A stretch of 64,000 bases of DNA from contig NZ_OCMS01000002.1 in assembly GCF_900215325.1 (NCBI RefSeq), positions 372,001 to 436,000 on the forward strand, given 5' to 3'. Under the pieces are notes generated by a model. It did no database searches. It saw only the letters and a program-made list of their open reading frames with translations, and was not told where the DNA came from. Position 1 is the first letter of the stretch, and every line of letters starts with the position of its first letter. Shown in pieces: positions 27,355-60,323 of the stretch. A program made the translations under genes and the position numbers. This stretch comes from Fibrobacter sp. UWB16. Lineage in GTDB: Bacteria > Fibrobacterota > Fibrobacteria > Fibrobacterales > Fibrobacteraceae.

Positions 27355-28911
27355 CTAGTCTTCGCCGCCGTCCATTTCGATTTTGAGCTCTTTGAGCTTG
27401 CGCCAAAGTGTGGCACGGCTGATGCCGAGCTTCTTGCAGACTTCAGTCTTGTTGCCTTTGCAAATGCTGAGCGCATGCAAGATGTGTCTGCGTTCCATCT
27501 CGTCGAGCGAAAGAATTTCTTCTTCTTCGGGCGCAGGATTATGTGTGATGAACTTCGTCGGGTTGTGCGTCAAAAGTCCTGCTCTATCCGTCTTGCCCGA
27601 GATCGGTTCAAAATGAATCGGCTTTCCGAGAGGATTCTCGACAGACTTTTCATTCTCTTCCGCATCTTCGGCGTTGTCGAAAACAGGCTCGCTAGCGCTT
27701 TCTTTAAGACTAGCAGCATCCTTGATATGCGGAATCGCAACAGTCTTTTCGCGGGCTTCCACTTGCACGTATTCGGGCAAGTCTTCGAGCTTGATGATTC
27801 CACCTTCCGAAAGCACAATCGCATGCTCCATGATGTTTTCGAGCTCGCGGATGTTGCCGGGGTAGGGGTACTTTGTCAAAGCGTAAAGAGCCGCGGGTTC
27901 AATGTCATGGATTTCCTTGCCTTGCGCTTCCTTGTTCTTTAAGATAAAGTAACGGATTAAGTTCGGAATGACGGGCTTCCTGTCGCGGAGCGGCGGGAGC
28001 TGCAAGTGGAACGTGTTTAAACGGTAATAAAGGTCTTCGCGGAAACGACCTTCGTGCATCGCTTGTTGCAAATTGCGGTTGGTAGCTGCAATAATGCGAA
28101 TGTCCAAGTAACGGGCTTCAGTTTCGCCCACGCGACGAATCTCGTGGCTTTGCAGAAAACGTAAAAGCTTGACTTGTGTTGCCAGAGAAAGCTCACCGAC
28201 TTCATCGAGGAACAGCGTACCGCCATTGGCGGATTCGAACAAGCCCTTCTTGTCGGCGGTAGAACCTGTATACGATCCCTTCTTGCTTCCGAAGAGTTCA
28301 CTTTCCACGAGGTTCTCGGGAATGGCTCCGCAGTTGACTGGCACAAACGGTTCGTTCGCGCGTTTGCTGTAGCGGTGGACGACGTTTGCCAAAAATTCCT
28401 TGCCCGAACCGGACTCGCCGGTTATAAGCAAGGTACTGTTGGTCGGTGCGACCTTATAAACTGTTTTTAGAATTTTGCGCATCTCGGGCGTGTCGCCGAG
28501 AAGGCTGTCCAACACCTGGGATTCCATGAGCTGCGTGTTGGACTTGTTTTGTTGCTGAGCCTGGATCTTGCTTGTCGTGCTCTCAAGGAGCGATAGCGTG
28601 ACCGGCTTCTTCAAGAAGCTGCTTGCTCCACGAGTAATGGCGCTAGCGGCCCCCTGCCAGTTGCGGTCATCGCACAGCACGAAGATTTCAATACCAGGCT
28701 GGCGTTCCTTCAAATAGCTGATCAAATCCATATTGTCGAGCATCAAAAAAGGAACCTCGATAAACGCAAGGTCTATCGACGTCTTCTTAATTAGCGGCAT
28801 CAGAGTCTTATCGTCGGAGCAGACCAGTAGGTTCGTTCCGGCTACAGACCAGTTCCGCTGTAGCTCCTCGACAAATTTCCGATCAAAATCAGCGATCAGG
28901 ATATTCATCAT
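27355..28911 (-). CDS. Sigma-54-dependent transcriptional activator with a pseudo-receiver domain
   Basis: The 518-residue protein has a receiver-like domain (1-115), an AAA+ domain (about 140-370), a long linker and a Fis-type HTH (about 470-510, NKTEVCKKLGISRATLWRKL). The AAA+ domain has GESGSGKE (Walker A), GGTLFLDEVGEL (Walker B) and the sigma-54 contact loop as GSYTGS in place of GAFTGA. In the receiver the phosphoacceptor position is Glu (E52, AFIEVPF), one of the paired acidic residues is Phe (ADFD), and the Thr/Ser position is C80; the Lys (K102) is kept. It probably cannot be phosphorylated. Between the AAA+ domain and the HTH lies an unusual insert of about 75 mostly polar residues. 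It is the last gene of the kinase-receiver-activator operon. Confidence 0.93.
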   Translation of the reverse strand: MMNILIADFDRKFVEELQRNWSVAGTNLLVCSDDKTLMPLIKKTSIDLAFIEVPFLMLDNMDLISYLKERQPGIEIFVLCDDRNWQGAASAITRGASSFLKKPVTLSLLESTTSKIQAQQQNKSNTQLMESQVLDSLLGDTPEMRKILKTVYKVAPTNSTLLITGESGSGKEFLANVVHRYSKRANEPFVPVNCGAIPENLVESELFGSKKGSYTGSTADKKGLFESANGGTLFLDEVGELSLATQVKLLRFLQSHEIRRVGETEARYLDIRIIAATNRNLQQAMHEGRFREDLYYRLNTFHLQLPPLRDRKPVIPNLIRYFILKNKEAQGKEIHDIEPAALYALTKYPYPGNIRELENIMEHAIVLSEGGIIKLEDLPEYVQVEAREKTVAIPHIKDAASLKESASEPVFDNAEDAEENEKSVENPLGKPIHFEPISGKTDRAGLLTHNPTKFITHNPAPEEEEILSLDEMERRHILHALSICKGNKTEVCKKLGISRATLWRKLKELKIEMDGGED

Positions 28912-58209: not shown

Positions 58210-58278
58210 TATTTTATAGCTTTAATTTAATGTGGATAAAGTATTGAATTTGATTAACTTATATGAATTAAAAAGACT

Positions 58279-58306
58279 GATTAATCAGTGGTTAAATCGA
58301 TTAATC
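58279..58306. promoter_or_regulatory. Tandem palindromes, possible enhancer sites for a sigma-54 activator
   Basis: GATTAATC occurs at 58279-58286 and 58299-58306, 20 bp from start to start, about two helical turns. Both are part of TGATTAATCA-like dyads. They lie about 75-95 bp upstream of the sigma-54 promoter, the normal range for activator binding. Confidence 0.6.
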
Positions 58307-58361
58307 ACTTTTTTATTTGAATGAAAGTGCTGAAATTTGCTTAAAAACGCCAATTTTTGCT

Positions 58362-58378
58362 TTGGCACGCCTTTTGCA
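58362..58378 (+). promoter_or_regulatory. Sigma-54 promoter of spoVG-comM
   Basis: TTGGCACGCCTTTTGCA matches the -24/-12 consensus TGGCACG-N4-TTGCA exactly, with GG (58364-58365) and GC (58376-58377) separated by the canonical 10 bases. Transcription would begin near 58388, about 60 bp before spoVG. It was the only such site found by eye in the intergenic regions. Confidence 0.85.
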
Positions 58379-58448
58379 TACTGTGTTGTGTTCCGCTAGA
58401 ATGCGAGTGCATTTGCCTGCGGTTAATCTTCAAAAATAGGAGGCCGAT

Positions 58449-58781
58449 ATGGCTGAAAAAACAGAAAAGAAAACATCGTGTATCCCTGCAATGTCCCCGG
58501 CGTTTGACTGTCTTGCCGTGACGAATGTTCAAGTTTATCCGTTCAAGGAAGGGGCTAATCTTGGCCACATGAAGGGGATTGCGACAATTGTACTGAATGA
58601 CCAAATTCAGATTCGTGGGCTCCGCGTGATGGATGGCGAAAATGGCATGTTTGTGGGGTATCCGCTTGATACATTCTACAAGGGCGAAGATTACCGCACT
58701 GTATGTTTGCCGATTACGCGACAGCTGCGTGAACATATCGAAAATTGCGTGCTTGAAAAGTATCAGGCTGCAGTAGCGTAA
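58449..58781 (+). CDS. spoVG: SpoVG family regulatory protein
   Basis: A 110-residue protein. After a polar N-terminal extension of about 20 residues, the family core reads VTNVQVYPFKEGANLGHMKGIATIVLNDQIQIRGLRVMD (in pieces), GMFVGYPLD, and a C-terminal TRQLREHIENCVLEKY helix. SpoVG proteins are small nucleic-acid-binding regulators that affect septation in Bacillus and RNA or DNA control elsewhere. The strong AGGAGG confirms the ATG. The gene is behind a sigma-54 promoter and followed by comM after 12 bp, so the two should be one operon. Confidence 0.9.
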   Translation: MAEKTEKKTSCIPAMSPAFDCLAVTNVQVYPFKEGANLGHMKGIATIVLNDQIQIRGLRVMDGENGMFVGYPLDTFYKGEDYRTVCLPITRQLREHIENCVLEKYQAAVA

Positions 58782-58793
58782 GGTAGGTGCAAA

Positions 58794-60323
58794 TTGTTTC
58801 GTAGAATCCGTTCTTATTGCTTGTTTGGAATAAAGGCTGTTCCCGTGAGTGTAGAAGTCGATGCCTCTCAAGGACTGCCAGGTTTTACTCTTGTTGGGCT
58901 TCCGGACAATGCGGTAAGGGAATCTCGAGAGCGAGTCGTTTCGGCAATACGTTCCATCGGGAAAGTGGTGACTGGTTTCCGTACAACGGTGAACTTGTCG
59001 CCTGCGGATTTACGAAAGGAGGGGAGTGCATTAGACCTTCCGCTAGCGATTGGCTTGCTTGTTTCGACTGGGGAAATTGAAATTCCACAGCTGGATCGCT
59101 ATGTCTTTGTGGGCGAACTTTCATTGGATGGTTTGTTGAAGCCTGTCCGTGGAGTGTTATCTATCGCAATGAATTTGTCTACAGAACGTGAGCGCATTCT
59201 CGTTATTCCGCGCGGGAATGTGCAGGAAGCCTCGCTAGTGGAAGGTCTTCGTTTTATTTGTGCGGATACACTTGGGGAATGTGTTGAAATTCTAGAGCGC
59301 AATTCAAGCCAAGATGTGAAAATCTCAAAAGGGATTGCGTCGTGTCGGGCGGATATTGGTAATGGCGTTCCTGATTTTAAGAATGTGGTGGGGATGGAAG
59401 GTGTAAAGCGAGCGCTTGAAATTGCTGCTGCGGGAGCGCATAATTTTTTGCTTGTGGGCTCTCCTGGTGCGGGCAAGACGCTTTGTGCGAAATGCTTGCC
59501 GGGAATCCTCCCTGAGATGACGGAACAGGAAATCTTGGAAACAACGCGAATCCATTCCTGTGCGCGTCGTGCTGGTGATTCTGATGAGTTTAAACCTGTA
59601 CTTACGCGGCCATTCCGTTCACCGCATCATTCGGCGTCTATGGCTTCGCTTGTAGGCGGTGGCACACGGCTCTTGCCGGGCGAGGCGAGCTTGGCACATA
59701 ATGGCGTATTGTTCTTGGATGAGTTGCCTGAGTTCAACCGGAGCGTCTTGGAAGCTTTACGCGAGCCGATGGAAGAAGGTGAAATCTCGGTTAGCCGAGC
59801 TAGCGGTACTGTGGTGTGGCCTGCTCGATTTATGATGGGGGCTGCTATGAACCCGTGCCCATGCGGCTATTCAATGGACCCGAAACGCGAGTGTACTTGC
59901 TTGCCCGAGGCTCGCAAACGTTATCGTGAAAAAATCTCGGGACCGCTATTGGACCGTATCGATATCCAGGTGAGCGTGCCACCTGTAGATGCTGCCATGT
60001 TTGCGATAAAAGGGCGAGGGGAGTCGTCTGCGGATATTCGCAGGCGCGTGTGTACTGCACGATCTGTTCAGCGGGAGCGCTTTCGCAATTTGACTTTTAA
60101 ATCCAATGCCGAAATGTCGTCGGAATACGCACGGAAATTTGCGGAGATGACTCCTGCTGTAGAAAGCTTTGCGGTAAATGCCGCTGCTAAAATGGAATTG
60201 AGTGCGCGCGGATACTTTAGGTTGTTAAAAGTCGCGCGCACGATCGCTGACTTGCGCGGCGCCTCCGCCGTTGATATTATGGATCTTTCAGAAGCTTTGC
60301 GCTACCGCGCCTTTAGAGGCTAA
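58794..60323 (+). CDS. comM: YifB/ComM family AAA+ ATPase (Mg-chelatase-like)
   Basis: The 509-residue protein starts at TTG with AGGTAGG upstream and the family N-terminus FRRIRSYCLFGIKAVPVSVEVD. A lon-like N-terminal domain (about 1-165) is followed by the AAA+ core with GSPGAGKT (Walker A), VLFLDELPEF (Walker B) and the C-terminal NPCPCGYSMDPKREC/TC Cys motif, then RISGPLLDRIDIQV-like sensor residues. ComM is a hexameric branch-migration helicase that helps integrate incoming DNA during natural transformation; other members are less well known. It overlaps the folB stop by four bases at convergent 3' ends. Confidence 0.93.
   Translation: MFRRIRSYCLFGIKAVPVSVEVDASQGLPGFTLVGLPDNAVRESRERVVSAIRSIGKVVTGFRTTVNLSPADLRKEGSALDLPLAIGLLVSTGEIEIPQLDRYVFVGELSLDGLLKPVRGVLSIAMNLSTERERILVIPRGNVQEASLVEGLRFICADTLGECVEILERNSSQDVKISKGIASCRADIGNGVPDFKNVVGMEGVKRALEIAAAGAHNFLLVGSPGAGKTLCAKCLPGILPEMTEQEILETTRIHSCARRAGDSDEFKPVLTRPFRSPHHSASMASLVGGGTRLLPGEASLAHNGVLFLDELPEFNRSVLEALREPMEEGEISVSRASGTVVWPARFMMGAAMNPCPCGYSMDPKRECTCLPEARKRYREKISGPLLDRIDIQVSVPPVDAAMFAIKGRGESSADIRRRVCTARSVQRERFRNLTFKSNAEMSSEYARKFAEMTPAVESFAVNAAAKMELSARGYFRLLKVARTIADLRGASAVDIMDLSEALRYRAFRG

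Follow-up and report, generated by a model that had tools for sequence, protein, structure and literature searches.

Regulons that combine sigma-54 with a bacterial enhancer-binding protein (bEBP) are already known. Promoters of the NtrC/NifA type consist of a GG-N10-GC element preceded by tandem palindromes in helical phase, depend on an obligate AAA+ activator, and serve nitrogen, flagellar and transport genes. PspF is an activator without an N-terminal sensor, in which an AAA+ domain with a GAFTGA-type loop is joined to a Fis-type HTH. RtcR, the activator of an RNA-repair regulon, serves a stress-type system tied to nucleic-acid damage; it carries a CARF-type sensor and acts on one local operon. 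In competence regulons, such as that of Sxy/CRP in Haemophilus, comM is among the regulated genes. Toxin–antitoxin (TA) operons are usually viewed as individually regulated by their own antitoxins, and they often carry operator palindromes. In the titles and abstracts of the literature searched, there is no precedent linking sigma-54 to toxin–antitoxin systems, or Fibrobacter to sigma-54/RpoN, and the box, the activator family and the set of targets presented here are undescribed there.

The window, the whole 64-kb stretch of DNA that was analysed, contains spoVG (58449..58781, forward strand; 110 aa; PF04026, E 2.5e-18), preceded by the ribosome-binding site AGGAGG (58438..58443, forward) and followed after 12 bp by comM (58794..60323, forward). 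The latter starts with TTG and encodes a 509-aa AAA ATPase of the ComM/YifB family (PF01078, PF13541 and PF13335, with a TIGR00368 match above cut-off), the canonical Gram-negative branch-migration helicase (PMC11612176). Upstream of both genes and on the same strand lies the sigma-54 promoter TGGCACGCCTTTTGC (58363..58377), an exact TGGCAC-N5-TTGC in which GG (58364-58365) and GC (58376-58377) are separated by N10, and from which transcription of spoVG is predicted to start at about 58388. Tandem TGATTAATCA boxes are found 56 bp upstream of this element: a distal one, TGATTAATCA (58278..58287, forward), a degenerate middle one, TGGTTAAATC (58289..58298, forward), which is absent from the sequence-only reading and in the triple-box versions of relatives is a full TGATTAATCA, and a proximal one, CGATTAATCA (58298..58307, forward). 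Their core, GATTAATC, is invariant in an alignment (A1) of 25 box-bearing promoters and is present in the window in two copies only, at 58279-58286 and 58299-58306. A sequence-only reading of this DNA had described a -24/-12 consensus with exact GG-N10-GC spacing ahead of spoVG-comM and two palindromes whose starts are 20 bp apart, and both observations are confirmed. The arrangement is that of an NtrC/NifA-type promoter, although the box sequence appears to be new.

An imperfect A/T-rich dyad, TGCTGAAATTT-GCTT-AAAAACGCCA (58328..58352, forward), lies between the boxes and the -24 element, and the corresponding columns of A1 read GGCGAAATTT-nnnn-AAAATCGCC. It was considered as the site of a specific regulator and rejected as such: similar dyads are present at the sigma-54 promoters L022 and L037, which have no boxes, so that this dyad is probably a general architectural (DNA-bending) element.

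Taken alone, the -24/-12 match would be weak support for a promoter, since relaxed forms of the pattern are no more frequent than expected by chance: the exact TGGCAC-N5-TTGC is present once in the 64-kb window, but with up to two mismatches it is found 66 times against 61 expected. The observation stands out from chance through the recurrence and conservation of the boxes together with the promoter. In the 3.56-Mb genome of the window (Fibrobacter group), a search for GATTAATC-N(8-16)-GATTAATC gives exactly three matches, and one for the reversed control pattern gives none; each of the three is accompanied by TGGCAY-N5-TTGC at equal distance and on the same side. The sequence-only reading had proposed such a genome search for paired boxes upstream of promoters; besides spoVG-comM it returns C1:417629 and C4:149278, each followed by TGGCAT-N5-TTGC. 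Downstream of the promoter, locus L001 encodes a VapB15-like antitoxin, whose match is below its curated cut-off, and a PIN toxin, and locus L003 a Gp49/HigB-like toxin and an HTH antitoxin. A profile built from the 25 promoters of A1 (R1) retrieves three sites of this genome at E 1e-19 to 1e-23, with the next match at 8e-5, and no further full match besides spoVG-comM and the two TA operons. A duplicated or mobile promoter cassette is rejected as the sole cause of this recurrence, because the three promoters have boxes, spacing and -24/-12 element in common, while the sequence between these elements and downstream of them is mostly different. The same profile search also leads to the rejection of a competence regulon, as no other competence gene of this genome has the motif: unlike in Haemophilus, the search reveals no comEC/dprA/pil set, and sigma-54 takes the place of CRP/Sxy.

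Exact TGGCAC-N5-TTGC sites without boxes served as a background within this genome. Some of them fall inside genes, and at the 13 intergenic ones that were read no TA gene was recognised; therefore, the TA content follows the boxes and not sigma-54 promoters in general. The box-free sites L016, L017, L020, L022 and L030 precede groES, htpG, a sigma-70-family factor, clpB and dnaK, so that the protein-quality-control genes of this Fibrobacter genome may, unusually, be under sigma-54 control. Others (L025, L028, L029) precede acetolactate synthase, gltB (glutamate synthase large subunit) and dapF, and the gltB and dapF sites are close to the NifA-like bEBP P0001 (C2:1003334).

Within the phylum, paired or triple boxes are found almost only in Fibrobacteraceae, where 109 of 111 genomes match R1 at E <= 0.01 and where almost every genome in which the region ahead of spoVG was read (about 60 more) has the -24/-12 element there. 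Thus, the conservation of the -24/-12 element and the dyads in relatives, to which the sequence-only reading had looked, holds across the family. When 84,980 species were scanned for the combination of boxes and promoter, 28 contigs matched, 27 of which are titled Fibrobacter or Fibrobacterales. The remaining one, from a 'Ruminococcaceae' MAG (L390:422-2926, CADAGA010000157.1), has a Fibrobacter promoter and the start of an Rpn gene fused in frame to unrelated sequence; horizontal transfer is rejected here, since the contig looks chimeric. Carriage of the promoter by phages or prophages is likewise rejected, as no viral contig of IMG/VR has the boxes and promoter. The distance from the proximal box to the -24 element, measured in 83 site calls, is 53-58 bp in 73 and 65-67 bp in 10, and never 59-64 bp. 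An extra helical turn is tolerated and a half turn is not, which fits helical phasing and is the pattern expected for a looping activator that is obliged to face the polymerase.

Across Fibrobacteraceae, 82 distinct sites were classified, of which 34 precede spoVG-comM. That leaves 48, of which two are truncated by contig ends and a few stand before genes that could not be named; about 40 of the 46 readable ones lead into TA, abortive-infection or Rpn-nuclease genes of unrelated families. Among the genes at the 48 sites are three kinds of HigB-like Gp49 toxin, PIN toxins, PemK/MazF, RelB-YafQ, Rpn/PDDEXK_2 and YhgA-like nucleases, DUF3800, DUF4160 pairs, GIY-YIG, DUF6169, a DUF4258/CopG (BrnTA-like) pair, the type III toxin ToxN, a stand-alone HTH protein and AbiD (PADLOC 3e-61). 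At one ToxN locus (L125), short repeats between the promoter and the toxin gene are probably the ToxI RNA antitoxin. In UBA1765 (L388), boxes and a sigma-54 site stand ahead of a gene for a 155-aa protein that is DprA/SLOG-like by eye and whose first 55 residues gave no family match when scanned; this protein may further tie the system to DNA processing. These targets set the system apart from NtrC/NifA-type promoters, and also from RtcR, as the loci are scattered and the candidate activator is sensorless.

The genome encodes one RpoN and seven true bEBPs. Among these, the likely box-binding activator, as judged from sequence, is P0004 (C6:90584-91528), a PspF-like and family-restricted protein that has only about 20 residues before Walker A and hence no N-terminal sensor or regulatory domain. 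It carries GESGVGKE (Walker A), GSYTGA (the GAFTGA-type loop, mostly GAFTGA or GAYTGA in its orthologs), LFLDE (Walker B) and the Fis-type HTH_8. Although it shares this layout with PspF, P0004 scores well below the equivalog cut-offs (194 vs 443.55 and 177 vs 529 bits), would act on different targets, and has FleQ and NtrC as its closest solved AAA+ domains by sequence. When the genes around it were inspected by eye, no PspA-like neighbour was recognised. Nor was a partner gene found beside it, as no conserved same-strand neighbour could be named. Each of the 11 genera of Fibrobacteraceae has orthologs of P0004, whereas elsewhere in the phylum the matches are weak and to other bEBPs only. At E <= 1e-10, P0004 is undetected in 8 of the 111 genomes of the family. 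Among these are G068 (96% complete) and G055 (94%), both of which have retained boxes at the spoVG promoter; assembly gaps or divergence could account for the missing matches.

The discriminating evidence for the choice of activator comes from lineages in which the box has changed. In genera g4 and g2 and in several species of the window's genus, the boxes at spoVG are TGTTTAAACA, TGTCTAGACA or of TGTCC type instead of TGATTAATCA, and the -24/-12 element is retained. With box type read at the spoVG promoter and residues given in Fis numbering, position 89 of P0004 is Tyr in 17 of 17 TGTTTAAACA/TGTCC genomes, three of which (g4) were assigned their box type by genus, their spoVG promoter being unread. 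Of the 24 TGATTAATCA genomes, 22 have C, N, A, T or D at this position, and the two with Tyr (G101 and G104) have hybrid boxes. The association gives a Fisher p of 1.1e-5 over 35 automatically scored genomes, a value that ignores relatedness. On a tree of the P0004 core, on which the box-type labels (A/B) of 7 genomes were set by eye, box type needs about five changes by parsimony, only one of them forced by well-supported branches, and residue 89 moves the same way as box type in most pairings; since independent box switches are few, a sign or independent-pairs test has no power. The dyad thus appears to be a box that can change and that does so in step with the recognition helix of one particular bEBP, a feature absent from the sequence-only reading.

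Taken as a whole, the elements, their spacing, their conservation, the targets and the covariation of the recognition helix make it probable that this is a true sigma-54 promoter driven by P0004 from the upstream box array, within a regulon that has spoVG-comM as its core and TA, abortive-infection and Rpn genes as a variable part. The same regulon might instead be read by another bEBP, namely P0007, P0002, P0006 or a NifA-like paralog, which is considered unlikely. P0007, a response-regulator bEBP of 518 aa encoded in the window (27355..28911, reverse strand), occurs in more family genomes than P0004 (108 of 111), and its residue 86 partly follows box type; yet its DNA-contacting residues (S84, R85, T87, L88, W89, R90 and K91) are kept in every genome read, whichever the box, and in G121, which has TGTCC-type boxes, its recognition helix is the same as in TGATTAATCA genomes, so that it was judged the less likely candidate. 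The family-wide profiling also covered P0006 and P0002. The N-terminal region of P0006 was not found in genera g4, g7, g8 and g9, nor that of P0002 in g2, g3, g4 and g8, and both were rejected because these genera keep a boxed spoVG sigma-54 promoter. The three NifA-like paralogs (P0001, P0003 and P0005) have nitrogen and biosynthesis promoters in their vicinity, which may count against them.

It could also be argued that the boxes are operators of a different DNA-binding protein, for example a repressor or SpoVG itself, and stand at a fixed place by coincidence. The boxes are indeed short palindromes of the sort that TA operons often carry as operators, and SpoVG is known to bind nucleic acid. 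Nevertheless, this explanation is regarded as quite improbable: identical boxes serve Gp49/HTH, PIN, PemK, YafQ/RelB, ToxN, AbiD and Rpn loci as well as spoVG, which argues against operators specific to an antitoxin, their location at about -85 to -110 with a phasing of 10–11 bp is typical of bEBP sites, and their type tracks a bEBP recognition helix. Least credible of all, to the point of being rejected, is a chance match to the consensus with no sigma-54 function; the chance frequency of the two-mismatch pattern in the window and the several exact matches inside coding sequence would favour it, but it is contradicted by the recurrence at unrelated genes in fixed helical phase with the boxes and by conservation in about 100 genomes.

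The proposed model for activation by P0004 is as follows. The tandem TGATTAATCA boxes, some 95 bp ahead of the start and always on the same side of the helix, would be bound by P0004. From there P0004 would loop onto the RpoN-RNA polymerase at -24/-12, where its GAFTGA-type loop and ATP hydrolysis would open the promoter in an rpoN-dependent manner. The same arrangement would control the conserved spoVG-comM core and an accessory set that differs from genome to genome and is made up of unrelated TA, abortive-infection and Rpn-type nuclease genes. Lacking a sensor domain, P0004 is probably controlled through its own abundance or by a partner protein. The content of the regulon, with its toxins, abortive proteins, nucleases and branch-migration helicase, suggests that the signal would be phage, envelope or genome stress; in this respect it would resemble the RtcR system.

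A further layer of control may act on the spoVG transcript. In its predicted 5' leader, a two-tier hairpin (58393..58422, forward) is formed by pairing of CCGC (58393-58396) with GCGG (58419-58422) in the outer tier and of GAATGC (58399-58404) with GCATTT (58409-58414) in the inner one, and in the folds of the window's subclade it stands directly before the ribosome-binding site. Compensatory changes are found in five of the six inner pairs (14 sequences), the covariation score is higher than in all 500 shuffles, and slid controls all collapse. Since SpoVG proteins bind RNA, a natural guess is that this hairpin is a candidate site for autoregulation by SpoVG at the RNA level.

The claim of the sequence-only reading that a sigma-54 activator acts through the dyads on spoVG-comM is supported by the conservation, the phased spacing and the presence of rpoN and seven bEBPs, and its idea that the two genes are co-regulated can be extended, as spoVG-comM appears to be one member of a wider regulon that consists mostly of TA and abortive-defence genes. 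The shared promoter and activator boxes suggest that a single activator switches all targets together. A more far-reaching proposal, held tentatively and at somewhat less than even chances, is that of a dedicated sigma-54 defence or dormancy regulon, in which one sensorless bEBP would co-induce type II and type III TA systems, abortive-infection proteins, Rpn nucleases and the SpoVG-ComM core, and in which incoming TA modules would be kept or spread because they carry the promoter. The switch of the boxes from TGATTAATCA to TGTTTAAACA/TGTCC makes the system a clean natural case of co-evolution between an activator and its binding site. If the regulon is as proposed, unrelated TA and abortive modules and a recombination helicase would have a common sigma-54 activator, which would give a handle on the timing of their expression; otherwise self-regulated toxins would be under a master transcriptional switch, and new defence genes would be predictable from whatever else follows this promoter.
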